Part shown: piece after piece, positions 5,696 to 46,236 of the stretch
How the letters are laid out: each line of letters opens with the position of its first letter
Position numbering within the stretch: the first letter of the stretch is position 1
Source: Catellatospora sp. IY07-71
Lineage (GTDB): Bacteria > Actinomycetota > Actinomycetes > Mycobacteriales > Micromonosporaceae
Assembly (NCBI RefSeq): GCF_018326265.1
Contig: NZ_AP023360.1
Coordinates: 226,501-290,500, forward strand
Direction of reading: 5' to 3'
Length of the DNA: 64,000 bases
Position numbers and translations under genes: made by a program
The notes under the pieces: model-generated
Seen by the model: only the letters and a program-made list of their open reading frames with translations
Database searches by the model: none
What the model was told of the DNA's origin: nothing

Positions 5696-6862
5696 TCAGA
5701 ACACGCTCCAGCAGCCGGGCAGGCGATACCGTCCCGGAGGAAGACCGACGGTGGTGACGGCGCCGTCCGGCCCCTGACGTCTGTTGATCGTGTCGTCGCC
5801 GCGCCAGAACAACTCCGTGCCCCGGTAGCAGATGAGGAAGTTCGGGCTCATCGGCGTGGCTGCCGGCGGCACGTCGTGGCGGCGCACCACCCGGCCGTCG
5901 GTCACCGAGATCTGGACGAAGGCCACGATGCTCCCGGCCGGTGACTCCTCCCGCACCTCGATCGCGGCGGTGCCGTCCGCGGTGGGGTGGATCGCCGCGA
6001 GCGGCACCACGCGCCGGCGCACCCCCTCGGCCGGGCGCAGCGAGCCGCTGATGTCGACGGCGAGCGGCCGCACTGCACCGGTCCGCGGATCGACCACCTC
6101 GACCCCGACTTTGCCGCCCTTGCCTGTGTCGGCCATGCGCAGCACCTCACCGGTGTCCAGCACACCGCTGATGCTCCATCCGGCCTCGCGGGCGGGCGCC
6201 GGGAACTCGGTCCAGTCCGGCACGGAGTACAGGCTGTAGCGATCGGACATGCCCCGGTAGCCGAGCAGCCAGTTGCCCGTGGGAGACCAGCGGACCACCA
6301 GGGCGCCCGGCAGCACCCGCTCGGCTGTGCCGGCCAGGTCCCGGACGACCGCGCCGTCCGGGGTGGGCCACAGCAGCCAGCGGCCGTCCGGGGACAGCTC
6401 GGCCGGGTTGCCGCTCCTGATGTTGGGGAACGTCGTGCGATACCACGATCCTCCGGCGAGCACGTCCGCCCGTACCTTGCCCGGCTCCGAGGTCAGGTCG
6501 TAGCGCAGCAGCGAGGCGGGGCCGACGCCCCGGTCGCGCGGCAGGGCGGCGACGTCGGGGCCTGGCTCGGGCACCTGCGTGGGCATCGGCGGCACCTGCG
6601 CCGGCGCGGACACCGAAGGGCTGGGCGAGGCGGTGCCGGTCAGCGGCGGCGGCACGGTGTCGCCGCCGCGCACCGCGAACAGCACCCCGACCAGGGCGAG
6701 TGGCAGCACCGCCAGCGCCGCGCCCACCGCGATCCGGCGCGCCCGCGAGCGCCGGGCCCGGACCACGGCCGCTTCCGCGTCGGCGTACTGGCCGGCCTGT
6801 TCGGCGAACATCGGCAGCGCCGCACGCAGCTTTGCCAGCGCGGCGTGCGCCTGGCTCTTGAC
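5696..6862 (-). pseudogene. C-terminal half of the split sigma factor gene (region 4 end, membrane anchor, extracytoplasmic domain)
   Basis: From the junction the frame reads TVKSQAHAALAKLRAALPMF, which matches residues 139-158 of the intact paralogue (TVKSQTHLAIGKLRSALPMF). It continues through one membrane helix (IAVGAALAVLPLALVGVLFA), a Pro/Ser linker and a domain of about 320 residues with blade-like repeats (LSPDGRWLLW, VRWSPTGNWLLGY). Upstream of the junction the open frame continues into element DNA with no homology, so the apparent 473-codon frame is chimeric. The matching N-terminal half lies 39 kb away at 45818-46236. Joining them at the shared GT gives 528 codons including the stop, in frame. 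Without the element this would be a complete sigma factor with an extracytoplasmic extension. Confidence 0.92.
6861..6862. other. left attachment-site core of the integrative element
   Basis: Homology to the intact sigma paralogue (CTGGCTCTT then AC on the plus strand) stops here and element DNA begins. The only sequence shared with the right junction (45818-45819) is AC (GT in the sigma reading direction). A 2-bp crossover core is what large serine recombinases use. The boundary is certain to about 1-2 bp. Confidence 0.8.
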
Positions 6863-7187
6863 CGTAGTCATCGAACTAAAAAAGCCACATCCACTGCGAC
6901 TTTCGAAAGACACGTTGCACATCTCCAGTCGAGTCGGCAGCTTTGCAAAGATCGCTATTGCCCGTCTGGCACCAATGAGGTCAAACGCCACGACGCGATC
7001 GAGTTCGCCATAACCATCACCTACGGGGACACCACAACCAAGCGACCGCCACCCGCAACGTAGACCACCGGGGTCTACGTAGCTCGCCCGCGAGATTGGA
7101 TGGTGCGCTAGGCGCATAGATCGTTTTGCGCTTCCTCCGTCTCATCTGGAAAGATGTGGCTCCTCGCGCGACACTCAGGAGACATCG

Positions 7188-7487
7188 ATGGCGATTGACA
7201 CGCTTCGGGCCGCAATAGCACAACGTCGCGTGGTCACCTTCTTCTACAAGGGATATTCCCGCAGTGTCATCCCAATGGCAGTCGGACAATCTCGCGATAA
7301 CACGTGGATGCTTAGAGGTCAACAGGTTGCAGGCGGGTCGTCCTCTGGTGGCACGAGCATCGACGCGCCCAAGCTCTTCAAGATCGCCGAAGTGATGGAT
7401 ATCGCGGTTTCGAACGACACGTTTGCCGTTCCCTCTCAATACCGCCCTGGCGACAGCGCCTTTGTGGTCATTGAGGCCGAACTCTAG
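7188..7487 (+). CDS. small WYL-domain-like protein
   Basis: Protein of 99 aa that resembles a stand-alone WYL-type fold. The N-terminus LRAAIAQRRVVTFFYKG is the usual first helix-strand of WYL domains (I-x-x-R-x-V-x-F-x-Y), and the C-terminal half carries PKLFKIAEVMDIAVSND, matching the strand-helix with F-K-x-x-x-I. It lacks the HTH found in WYL regulators. An AGGAGA ribosome site precedes the ATG. It is the first gene inside the left end of the element and lies 68 bp upstream of the OLD nuclease, so it may sense a ligand or regulate that defence gene. WYL proteins are frequent in defence islands; the link here is inferred. Confidence 0.7.
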   Translation: MAIDTLRAAIAQRRVVTFFYKGYSRSVIPMAVGQSRDNTWMLRGQQVAGGSSSGGTSIDAPKLFKIAEVMDIAVSNDTFAVPSQYRPGDSAFVVIEAEL

Positions 7488-7555
7488 ATCCGAGAGATCA
7501 TTTCCAACTGCGGAAACACCCCCTTAACCGAGGACTGGAGCTGAAGGAGACAGAG

Positions 7556-9379
7556 ATGCGGCTCGCCTCCGTCAAAGTATCTGGGTTTCGCAGCCTTCGT
7601 CAGGTCGGACCGATCCCACTCCGACGGCCAACCATTCTTGCTGGACACAACGACGCAGGCAAGACGGCCGTCATTGATGCAATCGCATTTCTCCTGGGCG
7701 ACTACCAGATCACCGATGATGATCCGACGTTCATGGCCCTTACGTCAGATGCGGATACCGAACGTAAGCGAGTCGACTCCATTGAGGTCCGTGGCGAGTT
7801 TCTGCCATCGGAATCTGAACGAACAGAACTGGGCCTGCCAGAACGCATCGCCATCCGTCGGATCTGGAGCGAGGGCGGCAACCTGCGCCTCGAGTCAGAG
7901 GAGCAGGTGCCCCAAGACGCGCGCCTTCGGGGCATCGCATCCAAGACCATGCCTGCCCTGCGGGAGATCGCGCGCGACTTCAGCGTCACGGTACCGGCAG
8001 GTTCCTTGAAGCCCGTGTGGGTCAAAACCTTAGAGGACTTCGCCAAAACCCAATCGGCCGTGATCGGTTGGACGCCGGTCCGTCCGGATGTTCGAGATGC
8101 CATGCCCCGGCTTTTGCGATTCGGTGAAGCGGGATCGGTCGAGGCGGCAGTTAAGGCTGCACTAAATGATCGATACCGGGAACATCTCGATAGTGACGAA
8201 TTTAAGCTGCAGGTCAAGGAACTTGAGCAGAGGCTCCAGAACTGCATTCTGGACGACGCAAATGACCTAATCTCGCACATCAAGGTTCGGTGCACTGACC
8301 TCGTCTCGGTTACCGTTGAGCCAGACGTTTCGTTCAAAGGAGGCCTCCAGCGAACGCGACTCCGACTCGCTCGTACCGATGGCGAGGAAGTGCCGCTGAC
8401 ATCGGTTGGCTCTGGTCGAAGCCGGCGAATTAGCCTTGCGATTTGGGAGTGGACGAGCGACATACTTCGTCGTGATGTGGACTCGGGCGCCGCATATAGC
8501 GAAGAACGCGATGTAGTGATCGTTTACGACGAGCCTGATACCCACCTCGACTATCTGCAACAAAGACGAGTGATGGAGCTGATTCGCGAGCAATGCGACT
8601 TGCCAGGCGTTGCGATGGTCGTTGCTACCCACTCCATGAACCTGATCGATGGAGCTGCGATCGATGACATCATCCACCTACAACTGGTCGACGAGCGCAC
8701 TGTGGCGAAGCGGCTGCTCGACGACTCAAGTGATGCGGCAAATACTCAGCACTTGGCTGACATAGCAGCCGCTCTCGGACTTCGCAACACCGTACTGCTG
8801 CACGAGCGATGCTTTGTGGGAGTGGAAGGAGCATCTGAACAACAAGCGTTCCCAATCCTCTTCAAACTCGCCACAGGGCGATCCTTGCAGGCCGCTGGCG
8901 TGGTTATTGTTGCTTGCAACAACAATGAAGGCGCACTCAACTTTGTTGGCTATCTCGCGCGAAGCGGGCGGCAAACGCTTATGATCGTCGATGCCGACAG
9001 TGGGAGAAATCGGCTTTTCAGTGATACCAGGTTAGCTTCCGTTGGTCTGAGAAAGGAGCACTGTCACTGGCTGGGACTTCCCGATAAAGAGCTTGAGTAC
9101 CTCTTCACCGATAAACAGTGGGCTGACGTTGGCAACAGGGTATGGCGCAGAAATGATGCCGCTAATTGGACGTCGGAGAACATCTCCGCGCTACGCGGTG
9201 CAGCTAAGTTTAGTAAAGCACTAGAGGATCTTTTTGCCACCGAGAGCGACACTGGACCGGCGTCTAAGACTGAGCTTGTGTACGAACTCTCTCGAAGCCT
9301 GACAAGGCCAGAAGACATTCCCAAGGAGCTCCGAGATGCCTTCAGTAAACTAGTCGGCATGGCGGCGCTTGATCGGTGA
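7556..9379 (+). CDS. OLD-family nuclease (ABC ATPase fused to TOPRIM)
   Basis: Protein of 607 aa combining an SMC/RecF-like ATPase with a TOPRIM nuclease, the architecture of overcoming-lysogenization-defect proteins. Walker A is GHNDAGKT (residues 30-37), an ABC-signature-like GSGRSRR follows near 290, and Walker B is VVIVYDEPDTHLD near 320-335. The TOPRIM part shows the catalytic Glu (VGVEGASEQQ, about 420) and the D-x-D (MIVDADSG, about 480). OLD proteins act in phage defence as DNA nucleases. No UvrD-like partner follows, so this is not a Gabija (GajA/GajB) pair but a solitary OLD. An AAGGAGA ribosome site precedes the ATG. Its base composition is lower in GC than the chromosome, which suggests transfer. 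Confidence 0.93.
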   Translation: MRLASVKVSGFRSLRQVGPIPLRRPTILAGHNDAGKTAVIDAIAFLLGDYQITDDDPTFMALTSDADTERKRVDSIEVRGEFLPSESERTELGLPERIAIRRIWSEGGNLRLESEEQVPQDARLRGIASKTMPALREIARDFSVTVPAGSLKPVWVKTLEDFAKTQSAVIGWTPVRPDVRDAMPRLLRFGEAGSVEAAVKAALNDRYREHLDSDEFKLQVKELEQRLQNCILDDANDLISHIKVRCTDLVSVTVEPDVSFKGGLQRTRLRLARTDGEEVPLTSVGSGRSRRISLAIWEWTSDILRRDVDSGAAYSEERDVVIVYDEPDTHLDYLQQRRVMELIREQCDLPGVAMVVATHSMNLIDGAAIDDIIHLQLVDERTVAKRLLDDSSDAANTQHLADIAAALGLRNTVLLHERCFVGVEGASEQQAFPILFKLATGRSLQAAGVVIVACNNNEGALNFVGYLARSGRQTLMIVDADSGRNRLFSDTRLASVGLRKEHCHWLGLPDKELEYLFTDKQWADVGNRVWRRNDAANWTSENISALRGAAKFSKALEDLFATESDTGPASKTELVYELSRSLTRPEDIPKELRDAFSKLVGMAALDR

Positions 9380-9562
9380 TGCACGGTGGGCACGACGCCA
9401 CAGCATTCTTGCCTTACGCTGTGCAGGGGTAGGTGCCTCCCAAAGATGCCAGCGCTTGGCCGGCGTCCATTGATGACCATGGCTCTCTTGGAGCACGCCA
9501 CACCACCTGCACGCATTCGGCTCAGGTGGCGATTCGTGGCGCACCCGGGTATGGAACTCCAT
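9350..9562 (-). CDS. small Cys-containing protein
   Basis: Protein of 70 aa starting MEFHTRVRHE behind a strong GAGGAGGTGCGACG ribosome site. It contains CRWCGVLQESHGHQW followed by a basic helix (PTPAQRKARMLWRRAH). The C-x-x-C plus two His suggest a small zinc site. Similar short proteins with a CR-x-CG...H...GWH-x-W pattern are common in actinomycete phages and mobile elements; their role is unknown. The 3' end overlaps the convergent OLD gene by 30 bp. An in-frame start at 9661 exists but has no ribosome site. Confidence 0.6.
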   Translation of the reverse strand: MEFHTRVRHESPPEPNACRWCGVLQESHGHQWTPAKRWHLWEAPTPAQRKARMLWRRAHRASPIKRRHAD

Positions 9563-9888
9563 CGTCGCACCTCCTCGTCCATCCACCATGACACATGCGT
9601 ATGACAGTTTGTAGTGCCTCGACAGACCCAACGACTGATCAAATGCGGCCACGGCCGCCACTGTCAGACGCGCCTTGCGCTGGGCAAGTCCGCCACGGCC
9701 CTGGCGAGCTCGGCGTGTTGCGGTCGCGGAGCGAAGAACAGCAGCCCTGGTTGGAGTGTGTTGTTCGAGGCGGCGAAGTATGGCGTGGCTACGGGAAGGA
9801 GCCCTTCGTCCGCCCCAACGCCAGGGAAAGGCCGTACGCGCTCAACAGCGCGAGGCCGGCGGTGCCTGCACCCGCGCTCTGATGGAAG
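9563..9888. other. 326-bp stretch with no supported gene
   Basis: Open frames on the plus strand (from 9595, 9614 and 9675) have no recognisable protein pattern or good ribosome site. I see no repeat or hairpin of note. It may hold gene debris between the OLD gene and vsr. Confidence 0.4.
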
Positions 9889-10329
9889 CTAAGACTTTGA
9901 GGATCGGGACCGAACGGCCGATACCACTCTGAGCGCGGCCTCCGCCATGTCTTCATGCTCCCAGACGCGAATAGTCAACCATCCAGCATCCGCGAGAGCC
10001 TGGTCTGTGCTGCGGTCACGCGCCCGGTTGCGCTCGACTTTCGCGGACCAGTACTCGCCGTTAGCTCTTGGAGCTCGATGATGGCTCGGGCAGCCGTGCC
10101 AGAAGCATCCGTCGAGGTACACCGCCACCTTCTGGCGGCTGAACACCATGTCCGCCGTGCGGCGCACCTCCAGCAGAGGCCGAGAGCACACACGATACCG
10201 CAGGCCGAGCGCATGAACCGCTCGCCGCAGGGCCAGCTCAGGTTTCGTGTCACGGCTGCGGTTCGCCCGCATGCTGGCACGGGTTCCGTCGCTCGTGGCC
10301 CACGACTCTGGTCTCTCGGTCGCCTTCAC
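9889..10329 (-). CDS. vsr: very-short-patch repair endonuclease Vsr
   Basis: Nicking endonuclease of 146 aa that repairs T:G mismatches arising from deamination of 5-methylcytosine. Family hallmarks: RSRDTKPELALRRAVHALGLRYRV near the N-terminus, DMVFSRQKVAVYLDGCFWHGCPSHH with the catalytic Asp and the Cys/His zinc site, and the C-terminal GWLTIRVWEHE. I chose the GTG at 10329 because GGAAGGCGGA precedes it; the open frame reaches 10485 but the added residues are low-complexity. It lies downstream of the cytosine methyltransferase on the same strand, the usual Dcm-Vsr pairing. Confidence 0.93.
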   Translation of the reverse strand: MKATERPESWATSDGTRASMRANRSRDTKPELALRRAVHALGLRYRVCSRPLLEVRRTADMVFSRQKVAVYLDGCFWHGCPSHHRAPRANGEYWSAKVERNRARDRSTDQALADAGWLTIRVWEHEDMAEAALRVVSAVRSRSSKS

Positions 10330-10610
10330 TCCGCCTTCCCGTTCAAGCCGATTCGTACCGCCCACGGGATCCCTGCCATCGCCCAATACCGCGAGACTCA
10401 TGGAACGAGGATCACGGCAGCGGGTATCGGGAACCGCCTCACCGCGTCGACACGACAACGAGTCGTCACCGACGCAAGGAGCCACTCCCTATCACCCTAA
10501 CGGAATACTCGCACATCTCGACTCCTCGACCAGCCCTATGCGAGCTTGAGAATCACGTCGATCGAGCATTCCCAGGATTTGAGGTTCATCCTGGGCCAGC
10601 ATACGTGCAA

Positions 10611-11828
10611 CTACACCGTCTCGGGACTGGAGCTGTTGACACGGGCCGCCTGGACCATCGGCATGAGGTAGTGGCGAGCCAGCCATTCGACGGCGGGCAC
10701 GCAGACTGCGTCTCCGAACCCGCCTACAGCATGGCTGACGCGTAAGTCGTTGCCGAGCGTGTAAGTGTCGGCCCCCATCAAGCGGGCGTACTCCACTGAA
10801 GTCATCCAGCGCACTTTGAATCGGCCTGCTTCCGCGCGCACGACGGCCTGCTTGGAGGAACCGCCGCGCGCTGTGCGCAAGCATCCGGCGACGTCATCCG
10901 GCCGTATCTCCCACGCTGGCTTGCCAAGGCGGGTCCGGCGGTAGGCGGTCCGGTATGCTGGCTTCTCGCTGGCTTTGAGGAGCTCAAGCCGGGCTTGGTT
11001 GAGTGGCGAGAGCTCGTCGAAAAATTTGGCGGTGCGTTTGTCGTCCCACCAACGAGGGTCCGATTCCTCGAGGTCCTCGGCGATTTCCGACAATCCCTCG
11101 TCGCGCAGTGCGGGCGGCACCGGCAGGACTGCGCGATGCATGACTAGCTCGGTGTCGTTGAAGAAGCGGTCTAGCAGTTTCGGACGAAGGTCATAGTTGT
11201 CCTCTTGCTTTTCCGCGGGCGGAATGCGCAGCCCAATAATGAACAAGCGTGGCCGCGATTGCGGCACAAAGCGGCGTGCGTCAATAGTCAGGACATCAAC
11301 GGAGTAACCGAGCTCGTTCAAACTGGTGATCGCTGCCTTCATGTCCGCTCCACCGTGACTGGTGGCAAGGCCGGTGACGTTCTCCAGCGTCACGACGGCA
11401 GGCGCCGACTCCCCCAACTCCTCTAGAATCCGCGTGAAGTGCCAAAAGGTGCCCGAGTGCTTTCCTGCGAGTCCGCTGCGGCCGCCGGCAAGCGACAAGT
11501 CCGTGCACGGAAAGGACGCCCATGCCAATGACAAGTCCGTGGGCAGAGCTTCTGCGTGCACCTCTGCCACGTCGCCGAGATGGAACCCGTCATCGTCTGG
11601 ATCTTGGAAGTGTGCAGAATACATCTGCTTTTTGTCCGGTTCGATGTCGTTCGCCCAGACCACACGGAATCCGACGCGTTCCAGTCCCATTCGCACCAGG
11701 CCGATGCCGGCGAAGAACTCCGCGACGGTGGCCGGGGGCACAGGGTGCGCAACGATGGTGTCGCCGGGCTCACTCGGTGGCGCGACCTCGGCGGGTCGTT
11801 CGCTGACAGGTGCGATAACCGGCGTCAT
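10611..11828 (-). CDS. DNA (cytosine-5) methyltransferase
   Basis: C5-methyltransferase of 405 aa. In order: motif I FFAGIGLVRMGLERVGF (near residue 38), motif IV with the catalytic Cys ASFPCTDLSLAGG (PCT instead of the commoner PCQ), motif VI VVTLENVTGL, motif VIII VPQSRPRLFIIGL, and after a target-recognition region motifs IX/X (RWMTSVEYARLMGAD, AVGGFGDAVCVPAV). It probably protects host sites against the GIY-YIG nuclease encoded divergently. Vsr follows on the same strand. The recognition sequence cannot be read from the protein. Confidence 0.95.
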   Translation of the reverse strand: MTPVIAPVSERPAEVAPPSEPGDTIVAHPVPPATVAEFFAGIGLVRMGLERVGFRVVWANDIEPDKKQMYSAHFQDPDDDGFHLGDVAEVHAEALPTDLSLAWASFPCTDLSLAGGRSGLAGKHSGTFWHFTRILEELGESAPAVVTLENVTGLATSHGGADMKAAITSLNELGYSVDVLTIDARRFVPQSRPRLFIIGLRIPPAEKQEDNYDLRPKLLDRFFNDTELVMHRAVLPVPPALRDEGLSEIAEDLEESDPRWWDDKRTAKFFDELSPLNQARLELLKASEKPAYRTAYRRTRLGKPAWEIRPDDVAGCLRTARGGSSKQAVVRAEAGRFKVRWMTSVEYARLMGADTYTLGNDLRVSHAVGGFGDAVCVPAVEWLARHYLMPMVQAARVNSSSPETV

Positions 11829-12053
11829 CTATGACCACTCTCATCGTACAGGCGTTCGTCCGAGATGATGTTAGTCGACCGGCCCAGGGGCCCGACGCCA
11901 GGTCATCCTGACACGCCCGGTGAACATCCGAAAGTGACTCGCTGTTCGCTACGACGTGTTGGAGCTCCGACTACGGAGGGTGCCTAACGACGGTACTTCG
12001 ACTGATGCGCAGCCAATTACAGTCCTTGCCGACCTCGCTTATCGGAGGCCAAT

Positions 12054-12773
12054 GTGTTGCCCCGGCCTGGCATTGACATGTCCACCACGCTGCTGCCCCG
12101 TGAAGTGCAGCTCATTCGCGACGCCATAGCGCGCGCATTGCGCCAGCCGGACCCGCAGCGGCCCACGCAGTCGATCGGCAGGGCCACGGCAGGCATCTAC
12201 GCCTTCTACGACTACGACGGCGAACCCATCTACGTCGGCCAGACCGCCGAGGGTTTCAGCGTTCGTCTGGGTCGCCATCTGACCGGACAGAGGTCGGATG
12301 CTGTGGCTAAATATGTGCTAGACCCGTTCGAGGTGCACACGGTCGCGCTGTGGTCATTGCCTCATATCGGAGACATGCCGGCGAGACAGCGCAAGGCTGC
12401 TCTAGATCCCTTCGAGTACACCGTCTATCAGAAGCTGCTTGAGGATAGCGCCTTCAAAGCCGTGTTGAACGAGGGTGACATCGCTCCTGGTCCGCTCATG
12501 CAGATGTCGGCTCCACTCGTCACGGTGATCATCCCTGACGAGATCTTCCCCGACCGCAGCCATCCGGACGTTCGCATCGCACGACGGGCGCAGACGATCT
12601 CGCTTCTCGCCAAGAACATCAGCGAGCGTAAGGTCTCCAAAGGGCTGCGCCGCGCGCTCGTCACTCAGACTCGGCGTTTGGATGAGCTGGCCAGGCGACG
12701 CTACGACGCGCTTGGCGGGGCCATTGAGGTGGAAGGCCCCGAGGGGGTGGTGCCGGAGGACGAGGACCTGTGA
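12054..12773 (+). CDS. GIY-YIG restriction endonuclease, Eco29kI-like
   Basis: Protein of 239 aa. The nuclease core appears as AGIYAFYDYDGEPIYVGQTAE, with GIY and YVG at the positions of GIY-YIG, then the arginine helix SVRLGRHLTG, and downstream the DPFEY segment that may supply the catalytic Glu. This is the pattern of R.Eco29kI-type type II enzymes. The GTG at 12054 has GGAGG six bases upstream. It is divergent from the cytosine methyltransferase across 225 bp, typical of a restriction-modification pair. The substrate would be unmethylated foreign DNA. Confidence 0.85.
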   Translation: MLPRPGIDMSTTLLPREVQLIRDAIARALRQPDPQRPTQSIGRATAGIYAFYDYDGEPIYVGQTAEGFSVRLGRHLTGQRSDAVAKYVLDPFEVHTVALWSLPHIGDMPARQRKAALDPFEYTVYQKLLEDSAFKAVLNEGDIAPGPLMQMSAPLVTVIIPDEIFPDRSHPDVRIARRAQTISLLAKNISERKVSKGLRRALVTQTRRLDELARRRYDALGGAIEVEGPEGVVPEDEDL

Positions 12774-12809
12774 CGACAGAGGGTGTGCGAGCCGCTCGGC
12801 CGCCGGGAG

Positions 12810-13772
12810 TCAGCGGCGGGTTCTGTCGTGCGTTGCCATTCGCATGCCTGGGATTTGAAGCGAGCTCCTCACCTTCAGCCCGGGTAAGCGGAAACCAGGC
12901 GGCAGCCGCAGTTCGTATTCGCGCCAGCTTTCAGCTGGAGGGCTGATGATCGCCGACTCCGACCACCTAAATGCCGTGTTGTCACGTGGGACAAGCCCCG
13001 CCAAGGTGTCCGCCGTCAGCTCGAACACGTCCTCGATATGGTGATGAGTCAGCGTCTCGGCGGTGAACGCCTCGTTGGTGAACACGACCTGTAGCAACAT
13101 CCATTCCGAGTGATACAGGCGGCTCTTGTCGTACTCGTTACGACTGAGGTGGAACTGATGGCGCGTGGCGCGGCTCGCCGCCTTCACCTCGATCCGCTTG
13201 ACACGCGGCAGGCGGACCTCGATGTCATAGCCATAAGCGTCGGAGACTTCGGCGACATGGACCGGAGCCATGCCCTGACACCGCAACCCATGCAAGATCA
13301 CCAACTCGCCGGCTGTTCCGAGAGCGCTCTTGACGTCGACGGAACTCGCAGCTGCCAGGTCAGCCGCCACATCGATGATGATTTGATCGAGGTTGGGCTC
13401 CAGCCACGACAAGATACGAAGGTCCTGGCTGGGAATGTACGCGCGAGACACAGTCGGCCCGCTGACGACGAGAGGCAGCCACGCCGGCGGCTCACACGTG
13501 AGCGCCAAGCGGGCCATCGCCGTCAGAGTGGCTCGATCAGCAGCTTGAGCGAGAGCCGCGAGCGGCCCTGCCAGGTCGATGCGATCGTCGACAATCGCTA
13601 ATCGCCATCTGACCAGCGCGTCCGCCACTGCAGGAAGATCCGTTGCCGCGGCGAGAAAGGCGCCGTGCCGTTTGGCTGCGTTTATCCATGAGGGAATATC
13701 ACGTCGTGGTGCCAGTGCTGCGGCCCAGGCGAGCAACACCGCAGCTTGGGCGAAGCCGCGACTGGGGACCAT
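12810..13772 (-). CDS. PD-(D/E)XK / DUF3883-like nuclease-fold protein
   Basis: Protein of 320 aa. The N-terminal half is helical and not recognisable. The C-terminal half (about 165-250) reads LGTAGELVILHGLR...VSDAYGYDIEVR...RIEVKAASRATRHQFHLSRNEYD. The Glu of GE, the Asp of GYDIEV and EVK fit the E...D...E-x-K active site of restriction-endonuclease folds, most like DUF3883. Its ATG overlaps the TGA of the SNF2 gene by one base (TGATG), so it is translated with the helicase and is probably its nuclease partner. It is last in the four-gene minus-strand operon and converges with the GIY-YIG gene. Confidence 0.8.
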   Translation of the reverse strand: MVPSRGFAQAAVLLAWAAALAPRRDIPSWINAAKRHGAFLAAATDLPAVADALVRWRLAIVDDRIDLAGPLAALAQAADRATLTAMARLALTCEPPAWLPLVVSGPTVSRAYIPSQDLRILSWLEPNLDQIIIDVAADLAAASSVDVKSALGTAGELVILHGLRCQGMAPVHVAEVSDAYGYDIEVRLPRVKRIEVKAASRATRHQFHLSRNEYDKSRLYHSEWMLLQVVFTNEAFTAETLTHHHIEDVFELTADTLAGLVPRDNTAFRWSESAIISPPAESWREYELRLPPGFRLPGLKVRSSLQIPGMRMATHDRTRR

Positions 13773-38934: not shown

Positions 38935-39780
38935 ATGACTGACCCGACACCGCTGCACCCGACTCAACGGCTGAGCGGCCGACCGCGCGGCGAGCGCATC
39001 GAAGGGATCGTGCAGACGGTCATCATGCTCGCCATCGGAGCCGCCGCCGGGGCGGCCTCCTTCCGCCACGTCCACGACGTCGCGGCCTCCCACGGCCAGA
39101 CAGGGTGGCTCGCCTGGGCCGACGCGGTCACCTTGGAGGCCGCGAGCATCGCCGCCGGCTTGGAGATGCGCCGCCGCAAGCGCCACGCAAAGCCCGTGCT
39201 GTTCCCCGCCGCGACCCTCACCTGCGCGGTGGCGCTGTCCCTGGCAGCCCAGGTCGTCGAGGCCGAAGACTCCGTCATCGGCTGGATCGCCGCAGCGCTA
39301 CCCGCGCTCGGCTTCCTGGCCATGGTCAAGATGGCCATGGGCAGAGCCGACCCCGCCACCTCAACCCGCCCAGCCGAGGCTGCTGACCGGCCGCCCGGAC
39401 CCGACCAGCCCCAGCCCGCACCCGACCAGCCCGAGCCCGGACCCACACGGCCCGAGCCCGGACCAGTCCCGGACACGGCGGACCAGTCCGCGACGGTCCC
39501 GGACCCCGCCGTGCGGGCACTGCTGCCCGCCGCGCGCCAAGCCGCCGACTGGCTCACCACAGCGGGGGCCAGTTTGACCCGCACCACCCTGGCCCGGCAG
39601 CTACGCCGCGACGGCCACCACCTGTCCAACCAGACCGCAACCGCACTCGTGCGCGCCCTCCGCGCCCACGACACCGCCGCGCCCAAGGGCGCAGACGAGG
39701 AGCCACCGATGAACGCAACCACCACCACCGCCGCCGCTCGGCCCCGCCCGACGCCGCACACACCACCAGGCGAAACATGA
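38935..39780 (+). CDS. DUF2637 / SpdB2-like spread protein
   Basis: Protein of 281 aa. The N-terminal half has the DUF2637 layout: four membrane helices (VQTVIMLAIGAAAGAASF, TLEAASIAAGLEM, LFPAATLTCAVALSLAAQV, IGWIAAALPALGFLAMV). A proline-rich repeat linker (units like PDQPEPGP) joins it to a C-terminal domain with a helix pattern resembling an HTH (TRTTLARQLRRDGHHLSNQTATALVRAL). DUF2637 proteins include SpdB2, needed for intramycelial spread of conjugative DNA. A second, decayed copy of the C-terminal part is at 43873-44064. Stop overlaps the next ATG. Confidence 0.88.
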   Translation: MTDPTPLHPTQRLSGRPRGERIEGIVQTVIMLAIGAAAGAASFRHVHDVAASHGQTGWLAWADAVTLEAASIAAGLEMRRRKRHAKPVLFPAATLTCAVALSLAAQVVEAEDSVIGWIAAALPALGFLAMVKMAMGRADPATSTRPAEAADRPPGPDQPQPAPDQPEPGPTRPEPGPVPDTADQSATVPDPAVRALLPAARQAADWLTTAGASLTRTTLARQLRRDGHHLSNQTATALVRALRAHDTAAPKGADEEPPMNATTTTAAARPRPTPHTPPGET

Positions 39781-40007
39781 CCACCCCGCGACCGCGCCGG
39801 GTACCCCGGCAACGACGACCCGACCACGACACCGACGAAGCCGAGCCAGCAACGCCGCCGACCGGCCCACTCGTCCGCTACCTGACCGACCCCGACATCG
39901 AAGCCGACATCCAAGCCTTCGTCGACACCGCACCACCCATGAGCGAGGTCAAACGCGCCAAGATCGCACGGCTGCTCGGCACCGACAAACCCCACCACAA
40001 CACCTGA
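39777..40007 (+). CDS. small protein coupled to the SpdB2-like gene
   Basis: Protein of 76 aa translated from an ATG overlapping the upstream stop (ATGA). A basic, proline-rich start is followed by an acidic segment YLTDPDIEADIQAFVDTAPP and a basic helix VKRAKIARLLG. Unknown function; its position suggests a role with the spread protein. A strong terminator follows. Confidence 0.65.
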   Translation: MTTPRPRRVPRQRRPDHDTDEAEPATPPTGPLVRYLTDPDIEADIQAFVDTAPPMSEVKRAKIARLLGTDKPHHNT

Positions 40008-40012
40008 CGCGC

Positions 40013-40049
40013 ACAAAGGGCGTGGCCGCGCCGCGGCCACGCCCTTTGT
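40013..40049. terminator. strong terminator ending the transfer operon
   Basis: An 18-bp perfect inverted repeat (ACAAAGGGCGTGGCCGCG and its complement) around one base, followed by TGTT on the plus strand. It separates the spread genes from the convergent minus-strand unit. Confidence 0.85.
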
Positions 40050-40080
40050 TGTTCCGCCCGGGAATCTCCTCAGAATCTTA

Positions 40081-40221
40081 TTACCTAGCGGCGAGCCAGA
40101 TCAGACCTGCAATGATTAGCGCAGCCCCAATCGAGATCATCAATGCAGGAGTCGAGCCGGTCCTCGACACATTTTGGCCACACGCCTGCAACATTGCACC
40201 GCCTATACCCGCCGCCAGCAT
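40081..40221 (-). CDS. possible 46-aa membrane peptide
   Basis: The frame starts MLAAGIGGAMLQACGQ and ends with one clear membrane helix (LMISIGAALIIAGLIWLAAR). It lies directly downstream of the XRE gene on the same strand and in the same frame after its stop. GGTGG sits before the ATG. Too short for certainty, and no family is known to me. Confidence 0.4.
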   Translation of the reverse strand: MLAAGIGGAMLQACGQNVSRTGSTPALMISIGAALIIAGLIWLAAR

Positions 40222-40251
40222 GAGGCAGCCACCTACAAGTAAGAACGCACA

Positions 40252-41112
40252 TCAGTCTGACGAGCCGCCAGATGGAGGATTCATCTGCGAGTTCAGCCGG
40301 TCGTAGAGGATAGGAGCAAGGAGCCGATCTAGGTCGTCGCCTGCCGTGGCGCTGTCACCATCGGAAGCTGGGTCCTCCGCATGATGGCGTCCGGTCGACT
40401 CGGACCCACGCACACTCACTGCCAGCCCCGGGGGGAGTGTCGGGAGCAGGAAGCCTTCGGCCTGAATGAGCCTGCGATGCTGACGGATTCGGTCGAGACT
40501 GTAGGCGAACTCTTGGGCTGCGTGGTTCAGGAGGGACGTCCGACCTTGAGGTCCATCCCCAAACAAGGTCGACTGATCACTACTTAGCCCATCATGCTCG
40601 GTGAGTCGCTTGATCCGTGTCTGGATCTGCTGATGTTCAAGCACCAAGAGCCTGTGAATGTCGTATAGCGCGATCGCTCGGCGCGCATCCTGCCAGTTGG
40701 CGCGAGAGAAGGACTTGTAGTCAGGGTGACGGGCTCCAAGGATCCAGCCACGACCCAACCACGGCGGCACCTCAACATCCGGGAGTATCTCCACCGCCTC
40801 TTCGCGGCCGACGGCAGTGAGGAGCATCGTCGGGGGGACGTCGAGCGCCGCTGCCAGGATCAGAACTTCTGCCACGCCGACCGCATCACGACGCCCGGTT
40901 TCAAGGTTCGCGATGACCGTGCGAGGAACCCTGAAGCCAAGATCGCCAGTTCTGTCCGACAGCTGCTTAGCACTGAGTCCTCGGCGCTCACGCCAGTGCT
41001 TGATCTGCGACGCAACCGTACGGGTAACGCGGGCGGACCACCCTGGACCGGCCGCCTCGACGTTGCCGGCTCCGGCGGGCGACACCTCGGGCGTATCGTA
41101 CGCATGTTCCAT
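40252..41112 (-). CDS. XRE-type regulator of the element
   Basis: Protein of 286 aa. The HTH covers about residues 30-85 (ASQIKHWRERRGLSAKQLSDRTG...FRVPRTVIANLETGRRDAVG). The rest is helical with a basic middle and acidic C-terminus and not recognisable. It is divergent from the small gene and CBASS on the right and convergent with the transfer operon, a plausible place for the element's master repressor. No other gene between transfer module and CBASS has a regulatory fold. Confidence 0.85.
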   Translation of the reverse strand: MEHAYDTPEVSPAGAGNVEAAGPGWSARVTRTVASQIKHWRERRGLSAKQLSDRTGDLGFRVPRTVIANLETGRRDAVGVAEVLILAAALDVPPTMLLTAVGREEAVEILPDVEVPPWLGRGWILGARHPDYKSFSRANWQDARRAIALYDIHRLLVLEHQQIQTRIKRLTEHDGLSSDQSTLFGDGPQGRTSLLNHAAQEFAYSLDRIRQHRRLIQAEGFLLPTLPPGLAVSVRGSESTGRHHAEDPASDGDSATAGDDLDRLLAPILYDRLNSQMNPPSGGSSD

Positions 41113-41374
41113 TTCGTTACCCGCTTGAGACTGTAAGGTGCGTCACGCGCGTACAATATCATCTGCGGAAACTCGACTTCAACGGGTAGTTGTGGATCTT
41201 TATGTGTCCTGGTGGCGCAAGCCAGCCTCATAATCTGCCAAGATCTGCGCAACTGATTTGCGGTGCCGAGGCAACCTCACCTACACTTGCCCGAGTGCCT
41301 CACGGGGCACACCGGCAACAAGCCGGGAGTTCATTGACAACCCGCCTCAGAGCGGGAGAAGAGAGGCAAGGGTC

Positions 41375-41518
41375 GTGAAGACCTCAGCGTGGCACTCGAT
41401 CAAGCAGTCGGTGCACCACAACGAGACGCTCTGCACCGAGGGCAACAACATCGAGCGCGAGAACAAGCGCGAGGGCACGGGCGGCAAGCCGCTCTGCAAG
41501 AACTGCGCCGACATCTGA
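41375..41518 (+). CDS. 47-aa Cys-containing protein with GNNIE motif
   Basis: Starts from a GTG behind GAGGCAAGG. The sequence contains HHNETLCTEGNNIERENKRE, then GTGGKPLCKNCADI: three Cys and a GTGG turn that suggest a small zinc knuckle. I recall similar 45-55-residue proteins in many actinomycetes, without known function. A strong terminator follows, so it is transcribed apart from CBASS. The open frame reaches back to 41258 but has no other start support. Confidence 0.7.
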   Translation: MKTSAWHSIKQSVHHNETLCTEGNNIERENKREGTGGKPLCKNCADI

Positions 41519-41538
41519 CCGAGGTAAGCAGACAGTAG

Positions 41539-41587
41539 GGCCCCGTGTATACCGAGATGTTTCCGTCACCTCGGTCTACACGGGGCC
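41539..41587 (+). terminator. terminator between the small gene and CBASS
   Basis: GGCCCCGTGTATACCGAG (41539-41556) pairs with CTCGGTCTACACGGGGCC (41570-41587) over 18 bp with one mismatch and a 13-nt loop. Confidence 0.85.
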
Positions 41588-41685
41588 TTCCGCGCAAACA
41601 ATACGGCCACTACGGCTCGCCGCGCCATACTCGCGACGACGCCGGTGACCCAGTCGACAACGGACCATGAGCGGGGAGATGAAAG

Positions 41686-42600
41686 ATGGGAATGACCGCG
41701 ACCGAGCGACGGGAGACGCTGTCGCGATGGATCAAGCCCTCGAGTGACCATGAACAGGATCAGCAGGAGCGGGCCGAGCGCATGGTCAGACAGGCGATCA
41801 AGGCCAGCGACGCTTTTGCAAGCAGCAACGTGCTGATCTACACCAAAGGTAGCTATCCGAACAATACGAACGTGCGCAGAGATAGTGACGTCGACGTAGT
41901 CGTTGAGCTGCAGGACTGCATCTATTTCGACTATCTTCAAGGCCAGAAACCAGCGAGCGAATCTAGTTCTCCGTACTCCGGGTCATGGACGCCATCGACG
42001 TGGAGATACGCAGTGCGGAACGCGCTGGTTGGTTACTTCGGATCCGACGGAGTCGATGCCACGGGCCGTATCGCAATCAACGTCAAGGCCGTGGCCGGAA
42101 GCCGACCGAGCGCAGATGTCGTTCCCAGCTTCGACTACCGCCGGTATGATGACCCCAACCGTCGCACCACACACATCGGAAGCTGTGTATTTCCCAGTGA
42201 CGGCGGCGACAAGATCGTTAATTGGCCTACCCAGCAGCTCACCAACGGACGAAGCCTTAATACCAGCACTGGCGGGCGGTACAAGTACTACGTTCGGGCG
42301 CTGAAGAACGCCGAGAACACCCTGGTGTCCCTCGGCAAAATCAAGGACCTGCCTTCGTATTTCATGGAATGCCTCATCTACAACGTTCCTAAAGATTACT
42401 TGACCAGTGGCGACCTCAGCCGAGGATTTGAATTGACCTTGAGCCATCTCTGGTCAAAGTTGAATGATGGTTCTGCGCAGGAGACCATGGTCGAGCCCAA
42501 TGACTTGAAGTGGCTCTTTAAGGGACACCAGAAGTGGACCGTGAATGACGCCAAGACTCTTGTCCTCGCAACGTTCGACCATCTGGGATATGGTGAGTAA
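41686..42600 (+). CDS. CD-NTase (CBASS nucleotide second-messenger synthase)
   Basis: Protein of 304 aa of the cGAS/DncV-like nucleotidyltransferase family. The core is YTKGSYPNNTNVRRDSDVDVVVE: GS, then N-x-T and D-x-D as in CD-NTases. The third catalytic Asp is in SADVVPSFDYRRY, and the C-terminal helical domain follows. On phage infection such enzymes make cyclic di- or trinucleotides. The adjacent effector (6 bp downstream) confirms a CBASS. No Cap2/Cap3 or HORMA/TRIP13 genes are present, so it is a minimal type I operon. It is A/T-richer than the chromosome. Confidence 0.93.
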   Translation: MGMTATERRETLSRWIKPSSDHEQDQQERAERMVRQAIKASDAFASSNVLIYTKGSYPNNTNVRRDSDVDVVVELQDCIYFDYLQGQKPASESSSPYSGSWTPSTWRYAVRNALVGYFGSDGVDATGRIAINVKAVAGSRPSADVVPSFDYRRYDDPNRRTTHIGSCVFPSDGGDKIVNWPTQQLTNGRSLNTSTGGRYKYYVRALKNAENTLVSLGKIKDLPSYFMECLIYNVPKDYLTSGDLSRGFELTLSHLWSKLNDGSAQETMVEPNDLKWLFKGHQKWTVNDAKTLVLATFDHLGYGE

Positions 42601-42605
42601 GTGTC

Positions 42606-43253
42606 ATGAATAGGCCCACGGCCGCCGTCCGATACGCCATACTCGGTGTCGGAGTGGTGTACACGGCACTTCTGTACTTAGCCGGATTCCAGTTTACGGG
42701 CTTGTCAAAGCACCTGATCGCGCTACTCCCCGCCGCCGGCACAGTTGCCTTAACTCTTTGGGACGGCTGGCTCTGGAGAATCGCGCCCCTTAACAAGCTA
42801 GTACATCGCCCGCGCATTGATGGTCTGTGGCAGTTGACCATCACCCCGACCTCCGAGAGTCACATCCCTCCGGGCGGCAATCGTGGTCCAATCCTGGCCT
42901 TTATGACAGTTAGTCAGTCCTACTGGTCTATCCATGTCCGTTTGTGCACCGTGGAGAGCGTGAGCCTGAGTCGCAGCTTCTTTTGGGAGCACCCAAATGG
43001 AGCGGACACTGAAAGACTAGTTTTTGTCTATGAGAATGAGCCTCGCCACATCCACCAGCACCGCAGCGTACGCCACATCGGCTCATGTGTCCTGGACATC
43101 GTTGGTAAGCAACCGGACAATTTTATGGGGACTTACTTCACCGACAGATATACCAAGGGTGACATGGAGTTCGAACTGATCGACCGAACAAAGGATTATG
43201 CATCCTTTGCCTCAGCTCAAAAGTATGTAGAAACGTTACGCAATGGGCGATGA
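42606..43253 (+). CDS. Cap15-like CBASS effector (2TM plus beta-barrel)
   Basis: Protein of 215 aa. Two N-terminal membrane helices (AILGVGVVYTALLYLAGFQF and LIALLPAAGTVALTLW) precede a beta-rich domain starting RIDGLWQLTITPTSESH and continuing with alternating strands (AFMTVSQSYWSIHVRLCTVES, RLVFVYENEPR, NFMGTYFTDR). This is the architecture of Cap15 (S-2TMbeta), which binds a cyclic nucleotide through the barrel and disrupts the inner membrane to abort infection. It follows the CD-NTase by 5 bp. The identification rests on architecture and context. Confidence 0.88.
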   Translation: MNRPTAAVRYAILGVGVVYTALLYLAGFQFTGLSKHLIALLPAAGTVALTLWDGWLWRIAPLNKLVHRPRIDGLWQLTITPTSESHIPPGGNRGPILAFMTVSQSYWSIHVRLCTVESVSLSRSFFWEHPNGADTERLVFVYENEPRHIHQHRSVRHIGSCVLDIVGKQPDNFMGTYFTDRYTKGDMEFELIDRTKDYASFASAQKYVETLRNGR

Positions 43254-43870
43254 GCTTGAGCGACGATCGACTTTTGTGCATCGGGGCAAGATAGCTCGTA
43301 ACTGAGTTGGGCTTTGCTCTGATCAGCTACGTTGTAGATTCGAACCTGCCTCGTACCCGATTCCCGAGCTTCTCGCGAGGGGAGAGTGGTCCTTCCGACC
43401 GTCACGTCCGACGAGTAAAGGTCAACAAAGTTGGTCTCTACCTCGCCCTGGCCCTGCTGCTGGTGGTCGTTGCGACGCTGAAAGGGGTTGTGCCCATGAT
43501 CGCTGACTTGCTGTTCGAAGTTCTGCTGTACGTCGGTGTGATGGTCGGGAGTCGGGTATGAGGCAGGTCTGCATGAGCCGCTGTGGCCGTTACCTACCTG
43601 CGTAGAAGCGGCACGGCCTCTGGGTCCGGGTTCGAAAGACCCCCGATGAGGTGCAGGTTGCGTCCACGGCAAGCCCCCGCATCAGCGCAATATGGTGCCC
43701 TGTAGCCGCGCCCCGTCGAGCGTCCTACGGCCGGCCGGTTGCCTATGGCGTCCAGTACAACCCCACCGAGTATCCCGGCTGACCGCCCCGGCCCGCACGA
43801 GCCGAACCCCGGTGCACCCTGACCGGACCTCGACCTCACCGGACCAGACCCGGACGACGGGGACCGGTCC
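43254..43870. other. gap between CBASS and the SpdB remnant, no supported gene
   Basis: A frame from a weak TTG at 43307 ends at 43561 with a hydrophobic helix (VGLYLALALLLVVVATLKGV), which may be a decayed or small membrane peptide; there is no ribosome site. From about 43690 composition returns to very high GC with proline-rich frames typical of decayed SpdB linker. Confidence 0.4.
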
Positions 43871-43872
43871 GG

Positions 43873-44064
43873 GACGTCCCGGACCAAGCGGTCCAAGCAC
43901 TCCTCCAAGGCGCGCGTCACGCCGCCGAAGCCCTCACCGACGGCGGCCCGCCGCTCAACCGGACCTCCATGGCCCGGCACCTGCGCGAGGGAGGCCACTC
44001 GCTGCCAACCAACATCGCGACCGCACTCATCCGCGCCCTGCGCGCCACACCGACCCCACGACAC
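43873..44064 (+). pseudogene. remnant of a second DUF2637/SpdB2 gene
   Basis: The frame DVPDQAVQALLQGARHAAEA, then RTSMARHLREGGHSLPTNIA and TALIRALRAT aligns with the C-terminal domain of the intact gene at 38935-39780 (TVPDPAVRALLPAARQAADW, TTLARQLRRDGHHLSNQTAT, ALVRAL). No membrane part or start is left. It suggests recombination between related elements or that cargo was inserted next to a transfer-gene copy by the integrase. Confidence 0.75.
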
Positions 44065-44098
44065 AGACGCGCCCGCCACGGGCGCAGCCTGACCAGGA

Positions 44099-44140
44099 CG
44101 CGACGAGGGCGTAGCCGCCGGCGGCCGCGCCCTCGTCGCG
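44099..44140. terminator. terminator after the integrase
   Basis: A perfect 13-bp inverted repeat, CGCGACGAGGGCG / CGCCCTCGTCGCG, with an internal GCCGCCGGCGGC stem lies 7 bp below the integrase stop. Confidence 0.7.
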
Positions 44141-44147
44141 TCCCACC

Positions 44148-45776
44148 TCACCCGCCCGTGACGACCGAGGCCGGGCGCTCAGCGGGCACCGCAGCGTCGT
44201 CATCCAGTAGCAGCCAGCGCTTGGCCACCCGACTCCCGCTGAACTTGCGCGTGCCCTTACCCGCGGGCATCAACTTCAACTCGAAGATCTCCTTGATGAT
44301 TTCGCGCTTGCGGGCCACGTCGTCACCGAGCGCGGCCCACTCGGCCTCGGCGTGCGGGCCGATCATCCCGCGCAGCACCGGCGGCACCCCCGCCTCACGC
44401 GCCTTGGCCTCCGCGCCCTTGATCCGCTGGATCAACCCCGGCTCCACGCGCCGGAACGACGTCGCCGTCACGTCACCGATCTCGGCCGCCGCCCGCCACT
44501 CCTCCAACTCCGCCCGCAAACGCTGCGCCTCCGCACGCGCCCGCACCACGCCCTGGTCATCGAACACCCGGTGCAAATTCTCGTACGTCGCAGGCCGCGA
44601 CAGCCAGCCGACCACGATCCGTTCCACGTATTCGTCGAGGTACTGCATCTTCACCGCCGCGCACCGCTTGTGCAGGCACGAGTACACCTGCCCGGTCCAG
44701 CCGTGCCGGTTCACGTTGCCCACCGACAACGGCCCCCCACACTTGCCGCACTTGACCAGGTACGACAGCAGATAGTGCGCCCGTGCGGGCTTCCACGTCG
44801 TGCGCTTGGGGTCCTCCAGCATGTTGCGCACCGACCAGTACGACTCCTCGCTGACCAGACCCTCCCATATGCCCTCGGTGACCTCGTCGAAGTGTGACCG
44901 CTTGCCGATGTAGGCGATGTTCAACGCGATCTTGCGGACGATGCCGCGCCGCCACACCCCGCCCTGCGACGCCGGGATACCCCGTTCGTTCAGGCTCTCC
45001 TCGATCCGGATCAAGGGCACCCCCTTGGCTACCTTCTCGAAGATCTCCCGCACCACCCCCGCCTTGGTGTACTCCGTCTTCACTCCGGTGGCCGAGGTCG
45101 CGACGTGCACCTCCTCATCGGCGCGCTGCTCCAGCAGCACCTTGGTCTTGGAGTGGTAGATGCGCTCGAACCCGTAGGCGAGCTTCCCGTGCGGGCGACC
45201 GGCCTGCGCCGCACCGTTCACCCCGCGCTGCACGTTGTCGCGGATGTAATCGGACTGGAACTCCGCCTGCACCGCCTGGAAGCCCAGCATCATCCGGTCG
45301 TTGCGGTCACGCAGGTCGTACAACTGCCCGCCGACCAGCCAGAAATTCAGCCCAACCTCGCTACACAAGTCACGAATCTTCACGTACACCGCAAGATCAC
45401 GCTCCTTACGCGAGATCTCCCACACCACCAGCACGTCATCGGTGCCCGACCGGATGCGGTCCATCAAGTCCTCGAACCCCGGCCGGTCCTTCTTCGCGTG
45501 CCGCGACGCCGACCGGTCGTTGTCCCAGAACGACTCACCCAACTGCCACGAATGCCGTGCCACCTCGCCGTGGTTGAGCTTGCGCTGATCGGTGACCGAC
45601 TTGCCCTGCTTCTTCTTGTCCTGGCTCGCACGCTCGTACGTCAACGCCGACACGAGATCCCCGCCGGCCAGAAGGTCGGCCTTCGAGTCCCACACCCGCC
45701 GACCCGGCCCCGGAACCGACCCACCACTGCGTGATCGCGGCCCTGCCATTGCCATCACCTGCCCATACGTCCACAT
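44148..45776 (-). CDS. large serine recombinase (integrase)
   Basis: Protein of 542 aa. The resolvase domain begins LVSALTYERASQDKKKQGKSV with the catalytic Ser at about residue 51, followed by FWDNDRSASRHAKKDRPGFEDLM and VLVVWEISRKERD. The Recombinase domain (VREIFEKVAKGVPLIRIEESLNERGIP) and the zinc ribbon (CGKCGGPL...CLHKRC) follow, then a coiled-coil tail (ARAEAQRLRAELEEWRAA). This is the full set for unidirectional integration. The 40 residues before the resolvase domain may be an over-extended start; Met8 or Met10 are alternatives. The gene starts 42 bp from the right att core, as expected for a serine integrase. Confidence 0.95.
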   Translation of the reverse strand: MWTYGQVMAMAGPRSRSGGSVPGPGRRVWDSKADLLAGGDLVSALTYERASQDKKKQGKSVTDQRKLNHGEVARHSWQLGESFWDNDRSASRHAKKDRPGFEDLMDRIRSGTDDVLVVWEISRKERDLAVYVKIRDLCSEVGLNFWLVGGQLYDLRDRNDRMMLGFQAVQAEFQSDYIRDNVQRGVNGAAQAGRPHGKLAYGFERIYHSKTKVLLEQRADEEVHVATSATGVKTEYTKAGVVREIFEKVAKGVPLIRIEESLNERGIPASQGGVWRRGIVRKIALNIAYIGKRSHFDEVTEGIWEGLVSEESYWSVRNMLEDPKRTTWKPARAHYLLSYLVKCGKCGGPLSVGNVNRHGWTGQVYSCLHKRCAAVKMQYLDEYVERIVVGWLSRPATYENLHRVFDDQGVVRARAEAQRLRAELEEWRAAAEIGDVTATSFRRVEPGLIQRIKGAEAKAREAGVPPVLRGMIGPHAEAEWAALGDDVARKREIIKEIFELKLMPAGKGTRKFSGSRVAKRWLLLDDDAAVPAERPASVVTGG

Positions 45777-45817
45777 TGGCTACCAACGCCATCGACCTTA
45801 GCAGCTATGGACCCATT

Positions 45818-45819
45818 AC
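45818..45819. other. right attachment-site core of the integrative element
   Basis: Plus-strand AC here is the last base pair set shared with the left core at 6861-6862. To the right the sequence matches the sigma paralogue (TGTGCCGATGGAGCAGCCCAT compared with GGTGCCGACCGAACAGCCCAT); to the left it does not. Exact position uncertain by 1-2 bp. Confidence 0.8.
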
Positions 45820-46236
45820 TGTGCCGATGGAGCAGCCCATGGCGGCGGCCGTCTCCGCCTCCGTCAGGTCCTCGTAGTAGCGCAGCACGACCACCGCCCG
45901 CTGGCGGGGCGCGAGCGTATCCAGGGCCCGGCCCAGCACGACCCGGTCCACCACCTGGCGCGGCTCGTCCGGGCCGGGCCACTCGGGGACCTGCGCCATC
46001 GGCCGGGCCGGGCGCCTGCGCCACCACGAGATGTGCTCGTTGATCATGATGCGGCGGATGTACGCCTCCGGCTGCCCGTACTCCATGATCTGCCGCCACC
46101 GCGCGGCCGCCTTCGCCAGCGCGGACTGCAGCAGGTCCTCGGCCGCGTGATGCTCCCCCGTGAGCAGGAACGCGGTCCGCGACAGGGCTCCCCCGCGGGC
46201 CACGACGAACTCGTGGAACCCGTCGAATCTGTTCAT
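45818..46236 (-). pseudogene. N-terminal half of the split SigE-family sigma factor gene
   Basis: The frame starts [20 protein letters not shown] and is almost identical to the intact paralogue through sigma region 2 (AAEDLLQSALAKAAARWRQI, then YIRRIMINEHISWWRRRPAR) and the start of region 4 (LAPRQRAVVVLRYYEDLTEA). At the junction (Val140) it leaves the sigma sequence within the recognition helix of region 4 (MGCSIGTV) and ends three codons into element DNA, so the residual product is 143 aa (stop at 45805). It retains region 2 but has lost -35 recognition and the membrane/extracytoplasmic part. Promoter and ribosome site are intact, so the fragment may be made. Confidence 0.93.

Follow-up and report, generated by a model that had tools for sequence, protein, structure and literature searches.

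We propose that the stretch of DNA analysed here (the window; 64,000 nt of the single-contig, 8.6 Mb genome of Catellatospora sp. IY07-71) carries a mobile element with an integrase that targets the region-4 codons of SigE-family sigma genes, crosses over at the dinucleotide AC and would, on excision, restore the interrupted gene exactly. We place the probability of this reading at close to nine in ten. The N-terminal half (46236..45818) and the C-terminal half (6862..5696) of one SigE-family sigma gene lie 39 kb apart on the minus strand of the window. The joined halves are translated into 527 aa plus a stop without a frameshift, and the alignment of the product with the intact tandem paralogue at 47962..46298 runs through the junction (329/558 columns identical, 59%), as does, with no gap at the join, its alignment with the uninterrupted gene of the same-genus genome G002 (408/527 identical, 77%). 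In G002, the counterparts of window stretches 45818..46284 and 5651..6865 directly adjoin each other (L069 10494/10490). The original prediction that the halves are two parts of one gene is thus borne out by the frame kept on joining, by the paralogue aligned across the join and by the uninterrupted homologue, sought at this locus in related genomes and found in G002 with both halves abutting. The joined frame and the intact homologue likewise support its claim that precise excision would restore the reading frame.

The DNA on both sides of the element is closely similar to that of G002, with identities of 96.1% in the left flank (1..5416) and of 92.8% (46958..51368) and 95.3% (51645..56519) in the right flank, while 46285..46957, the C-terminal part of the paralogue, had no match to G002 at flank-level identity. 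Beyond the junction, the frame of the N half completes the Thr codon, runs through four codons of element DNA and ends at a stop (codon ending at 45805). The TIGR02983 profile gave this half 161.9 bits (cut-off 141.55), with a match only to position 143 of 162. The C half is open from Lys-Ser-Gln to the stop, over 387 aa. Compared with G002, the C half is 78% identical in DNA; at the amino acid level, the N half is 99% and the C half 70% identical. The N half differs by 24 synonymous and 1 nonsynonymous changes. The C part of the intact paralogue has diverged from its G002 counterpart even more than the split C half. Decay of the split copy through relaxed selection was considered and set aside, because the dN/dS of the split C half against its G002 counterpart (0.50, no stop) does not exceed that of the intact paralogue's C part (0.68), which makes this comparison uninformative.

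Several Catellatospora genomes (L069, L011-L031) carry two or three tandem SigE-family copies with a fused hydrophobic segment and a large C-terminal domain. The sigma part of these tandem genes is almost frozen (dN/dS 0.01-0.08) and the C-terminal part changes fast (0.50-0.68), even among intact copies. In the window, the repeat at 5521-5579 reads into a short remnant, the end of which is much like the C terminus of the split gene; this is perhaps a third tandem copy that collapsed by deletion. The features of the window are listed in Table 1.

Table 1. Features of the split sigma gene and of the predicted integrative element (positions in the window)
Feature	Position	Strand	Basis or remark
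59-bp exact repeat of the split gene's start	5521..5579	-	probably left over from another tandem copy
C-terminal half of the split gene	5696..6863	-	remainder of region 4, a single hydrophobic stretch (by eye) and a large C-terminal domain
attR, probable crossover core AC	6864..6865	-	attR alignment, G002 comparison
Predicted P arm of attP	6866..6890	-	GGCT...GACT adjoining AC, as in 12 related attR
Variable cargo	7188..31199	.	matches per ORF in the 12 related elements: 0 to 5, for most 0
Backbone module, partly common to related elements	31854..40007	.	ATPase, Replic_Relax, DUF2637, others
Coupling-protein-like ATPase	36150-37625		matched in 3/12 related elements
Replic_Relax	37750-38610		matched in 10/12 related elements
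DUF2637	38935-39780		matched in 12/12 related elements
CBASS-like pair, cargo	41692..43253	+	CD-NTase-like cyclase 41692-42600; Cap15 / 2TM effector 42606-43253
185-aa ORF overlapping the integrase end	43594..44151	-	no Pfam or PHROGs match; not seen in the 12 related elements
Large serine integrase (predicted)	44148..45776 (start possibly 45749)	-	Pfam domains; just downstream of the sigma N half, same direction
Predicted P' arm of attP	45797..45820	-	conserved in the clade (attL alignment, 25 loci); in-frame stop 15 bases from the core
attL, probable crossover core AC	45821..45822	-	alignment of attL/attR, G002 comparison
N-terminal half, split SigE-family sigma gene	45823..46236	-	Pfam Sigma70_r2, r4; TIGR02983 E 1.1e-47
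Intact tandem paralogue, 554 aa	46298..47962	-	its end and the split gene's start are 61 bp apart

The attL and attR of the window share both AC and GT. In all 13 elements for which both ends were read, AC was common to attL and attR, with flanks that otherwise differ, while GT was missing at the place of the core from the attL of five (G171, G107, G312, G338 and G339), which reads AC-TCCC. In addition, G002 reads GGC ACG GTC AAG, with ACG as in attR against ACA in attL. Based on these observations, GT was rejected as the crossover core and AC was preferred; taken element by element, AC is the most likely and best supported core, short of proof in each. With AC as the core, the element extends over 6864..45821 (38,957 bp). 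The restored protein is the same with either core; the AC lies in the Thr codon of Gly-Thr-Val. The original prediction of a junction at the shared GT, giving 528 codons, therefore stands for the frame and the protein, while the crossover itself lies three bases away, at AC; similarly, its size of about 39 kb holds, and the interval 5696..46236 marks the limits of the split gene rather than those of the element. The base after AC was T in nine, A in two and C in two of the 13 attL, and G in five, C in four, A in three and T in one of the attR, as expected if attP supplies this base in attL and the host supplies it in attR; G207 and G213 fit less well, with C in attL unlike the T or A found elsewhere. 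Column counts for the P' arm were made on 21 sigma-side loci anchored on the P'-arm stop codon. A second P-arm-like sequence, with no sigma coding after it, was observed in the G301 element (L089 8329), 28.2 kb into the stretch fetched behind the integrase.

The 542-codon integrase frame (45776..44148) matched Resolvase (PF00239, 3.6e-24), Recombinase (PF07508, 1.3e-11) and, below the cut-off, Zn_ribbon_recom (PF13408, 1.7e-4; 22.3 bits against 25.3). From the domain order and the 2-bp identical core, we judge it to be a large serine recombinase. Searched at 1e-60 with at most the best four candidates per genome scored, the 354 genomes sampled from the family gave at least 42 places in at least 38 genomes. 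We defined as the clade the 27 places in 25 genomes (a minimum number of carriers under this scoring) with an integrase identity of at least 57%, and set aside the other 15, one of them a fragment (54%) and the remaining 14 no higher than 43%. By the same scoring, 329 of the 354 genomes had no candidate that reached 57% identity, and 2 of the 11 Catellatospora genomes carry an integrase of the clade. In phage and plasmid records, integrase matches remained below 60% identity in all 391 and 198, respectively, and at or below 33% in the ten matches listed for each. The order and class samples (397 and 394 genomes, family members included) yielded, outside the family, a single integrase at E 1e-120, the distant G378 (39% identity).

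Upstream DNA was readable at 26 of the 27 clade places (L062 lies at a contig end). At 20 of these 26, including the window, a SigE-family frame cut at the same codon (...G-T) was found immediately upstream of the integrase, and L115, from a MAG, added one further sigma-side locus, giving 21 sigma targets. TIGR02983 was the best match for all 20 related upstream ORFs (19 other than the window, plus L115), for 12 of them above the cut-off, and every match ended at 142-145 of 162. AC was invariant in the attL of all 21 sigma-side loci. An in-frame integrase start was present 46-72 bp behind the core at all 26 readable loci, and the integrase reads in the sigma direction in all 20 sigma cases. 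The remaining six readable members (L052, L054, L055, L056, L060 and L127) are in non-sigma DNA, which for L127 is a gene that encodes a NACHT-associated domain. All six fall among sigma-targeting rows of the integrase tree, with L055 and L060 as sisters and the others apart, suggesting that they may be secondary attB sites; with 6/26 outside sigma genes, the target is a preferred motif and not an absolute rule. Five of the 15 places set aside were fetched with flanks, and four were readable, L067 being at a contig end. No sigma gene was seen by eye upstream of these more distant integrases (L064, L065, L066 and L068; 34-43% identity), and those of L065, L066 and L068 presumably adjoin, as judged by eye, ComEC-type and aldo/keto reductase genes.

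The right ends were read from about 50 to 60 kb of DNA fetched behind the integrase in 14 genomes; seven further sigma-side places lie outside this set. A right end was found in 13 of the 14. In the window and in all 12 sigma-left elements, AC and an in-frame T(V/A)KSQ... sigma tail come after the P arm GGCT...GACT. G310, with a non-sigma left end, has a non-sigma right end, and for G363, also with a non-sigma left end, no right end was found in the DNA fetched behind the integrase. The 12 related elements with both ends range in size from 17.5 to 42.6 kb. The 21 N halves of the split sigma genes fell into 18 clusters at 70% identity, with a median pairwise identity of 40%, indicating that the split genes are not one orthologue.

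We then analysed the target sequence with a 17-base pattern written from the clade sites, GGSACNGTSAARAGCCA, which matched ten times in the host genome (reversed control, 0). Each of the ten copies belongs to an open frame in which G-T-V-K-S-(Q/H) follows a region-4-like sequence (by eye), and at least four of the ten are under the TIGR02983 matches listed. Each of the 11 Catellatospora genomes contains 8-21 exact copies, and four of ten other genomes searched contain 1 to 7; the control gave 0 in all 21 genomes. At E 0.001, about 50 matches to the SigE profile were listed per Catellatospora genome (about 49 candidates scored), presumably with other ECF-type sigma factors among them. The placement of all ten motif copies in region-4-like frames, together with the many genes split, suggests that the integrase reads the codon-conserved DNA of the region-4 helix-turn-helix common to sigma paralogues.

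In the mechanism that we propose, the integrase would recombine the predicted attP (P arm ...GACT-AC; P' arm AC...TAG...CTA) with an attB in a SigE-family gene. This attB is the part of region 4 that codes for the helix-turn-helix Gly-Cys-Ser-x-Gly-Thr-Val-Lys-Ser-Gln, and the crossover would take place at the AC within its Thr codon. Integration would cut the sigma gene within the helix-turn-helix, presumably with loss of sigma function; the P' arm would supply an in-frame stop, and the integrase gene would end up directly behind the sigma N half and co-directional with it. Excision would regenerate the sigma gene exactly. Since the motif is conserved at the codon level in the paralogues, the element would find many places to land, within one genome as well as in different species, and the price of integration would be one paralogue.

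The original prediction had gone further, to a regulatory role for excision comparable to that of the skin element, which it offered as an inference. As such a switch, a domesticated intervening element would reactivate the sigma factor by timed excision, in development or under envelope stress, with an integrase possibly driven by the sigma promoter. The exact, frame-restoring split with both halves open accords with this, as do the serine recombinases of spore formers, which perform timed excision according to the accessible text of two reports (PMC5025042, PMC5595907). The integrase starts within 75 bp of the core in 26/26 loci and is co-directional with the sigma gene in 20/20 sigma cases, so that a sigma promoter could read into it, and a gap of 61 bp separates the paralogue from the split gene, which makes an operon plausible. 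However, attP adjoining int is the usual arrangement for integrative elements of this kind, and the tandem paralogue is intact. A scan of both junctions, covering promoters of the sigma-70 type only, found none of that type. The split sigma gene differs in almost every lineage (18 clusters), the integrase of the clade is found in only 2/11 Catellatospora genomes among the best four candidates scored in each, the partly common backbone with its mostly private cargo looks like that of a mobile element, and no candidate for an RDF was recognised among the window ORFs. The switch thus appears quite improbable, and the regulatory role suggested for it is unsupported: the clade splits many SigE genes, 6/26 members are in other sequences and 329/354 genomes gave no integrase at 57% or more among the candidates scored. 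Many targets and patchy carriage fit a mobile element that uses a conserved codon motif as its landing site.

Compatible with this mobile element, and of the same origin, would be a copy that no longer excises, with the sigma gene left as a two-part pseudogene. We regard such a fixed insertion as rather unlikely: the divergence of the C half (70% aa identity to G002) speaks for it, but the integrase is open over 542 codons with its domains present, synonymous changes in the N half outnumber nonsynonymous ones by 24 to 1, and the C half is without a stop, at a dN/dS of 0.50 against 0.68 for the paralogue. A recent insertion would give this same picture. An assembly artefact, or halves derived from different genes, is scarcely credible: the genome is a single contig, the uninterrupted G002 homologue contains both halves, and the architecture recurs in 12 other genomes for which both ends were read. 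A more speculative view, which we consider improbable, is that the element family is a parasite of sigma circuits: it would silence one sigma factor, place its integrase under the control of the sigma operon and reactivate the gene on leaving, thereby coupling stress signalling to excision, and nearly every lineage would have had another of its sigma factors captured.

To characterize the content of the mobile element, 40 ORFs were predicted on it, 43594-44151 included, of which 35 were scanned against Pfam at E 0.001 (five short ORFs left out) and 10 against PHROGs. At the DNA level, the backbone (31302-40048) shares 88-89% identity with its counterpart in G006, from the same genus. The ATPase at 36150-37625 matched TrwB_AAD_bind (5.2e-6) and, partially, a PHROGs terminase (46 residues, 9.4e-9); Replic_Relax matched PF13814 (1.8e-41) and, in PHROGs, an entry for replication initiation by nicking (9e-17). 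Of the 40 ORFs, DUF2637 and Replic_Relax alone are widespread in the 12 related elements, and none was recognised as an RDF candidate. FtsK/SpoIIIE (PF01580), VirB4, relaxase, capsid, portal and tail had no Pfam match at E 0.001 in 35/40 ORFs, and the element is for this reason labelled only an integrative mobile element, as its sequence suggests, with self-transfer unproven. Three narrower labels were rejected on the Pfam scan of 35/40 ORFs: AICE, with the FtsK/SpoIIIE-type Tra (PF01580) unmatched; T4SS-type ICE, with the VirB4-like ATPase and relaxase unmatched; and prophage, with no capsid, portal, terminase or tail by Pfam and the one partial terminase match by PHROGs (10/40 ORFs).

The cargo at 7188..31199 encodes an OLD/GajA-like ATPase, Vsr, a cytosine methylase, a SNF2-like helicase, a type II REase-like protein, an Asp/Asn hydroxylase, an alanyl-tRNA synthetase, a phosphodiesterase, an NsdA-family regulator and an APH-like kinase. 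A defence-like cluster at 9889-17733 comprises Vsr, the cytosine methylase, GIY-YIG (below cut-off), a NO VEIN C-terminal domain, the SNF2-like helicase and the type II REase-like protein. The Asp/Asn hydroxylase-like gene (20084-20941) is followed by a 292-aa ORF without a Pfam match (20938-21816), a complete alanyl-tRNA synthetase of 885 aa (22176-24833) and its neighbour, the phosphodiesterase (24887-26023); the cargo ORFs of 20084-26023 had 0 matches in the 12 related elements. The NsdA-family regulator is at 28915-30294 (NCBIfam 1.1e-72). NsdA-type proteins are repressors of differentiation in Streptomyces.

In existing descriptions, serine integrases either use one conserved gene or are loosely specific. 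The clade suggests a further strategy, a landing pad that is conserved between species and yet present in multiple copies per genome. It also offers a set of natural integrase/attB pairs for the Micromonosporaceae, a family of antibiotic producers, as well as 21 natural disruptions of sigma genes, and it extends the splitting of sigma genes beyond endospore formers. A timed switch like that of skin is possible but unsupported, to judge from the differing targets, the adjoining intact tandem paralogue and the mobile-element genes and defence-like cargo aboard.

Among the matches listed in the open-access literature, as far as their accessible text goes, there was no report of an actinomycete serine integrase targeting a sigma gene. 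The accessible text on skin (sigK, in Bacillus and C. difficile), gin (gerE) and SPbeta (spsM) describes sporulation genes for which timed excision is shown (PMC5025042, PMC5595907, PMC4191935). As in these systems, a serine recombinase element here splits a host gene in frame, a regulator gene that is precisely interrupted, and precise excision would restore it. Unlike them, the present clade has many SigE-family targets and no fixed gene (21 sigma targets in 18 clusters at 70%), its host is an actinomycete and its excision is predicted. Prophage MMB025 of Alicyclobacillus, integrated in sigK, is similarly a mobile element within a sigma gene, but it is a phage in a sporulation gene of an endospore former, as the accessible text describes it (PMC13141910). 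With AICEs, the element shares integration in an actinomycete. In the accessible text on AICEs, 19/144 use a serine recombinase, some of those in protein genes, and the class is defined by an FtsK/SpoIIIE Tra and by Rep types; 'sigma' occurs twice in the main text, both times in a supplier's name (PMC3218068). Here, the FtsK/SpoIIIE Tra match is missing in 35/40 ORFs, and the replication-type match observed was to Replic_Relax, where an AICE would have RepSA/RepAM/Prim-Pol; the RepSA model is that study's own. A survey of large serine recombinases mentions no sigma-factor target in its accessible main text ('sigma' occurs once, in a supplier's name) and describes prolyl isomerase and Mg-chelatase/protease cases with a conserved site in one conserved coding gene, in addition to multi-targeting clades (PMC10083194). 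These cases resemble the present one in having a large serine recombinase with attB within conserved coding sequence; whereas each of them, as described there, uses one gene cluster, this clade targets one codon motif common to paralogues (PMC10083194).
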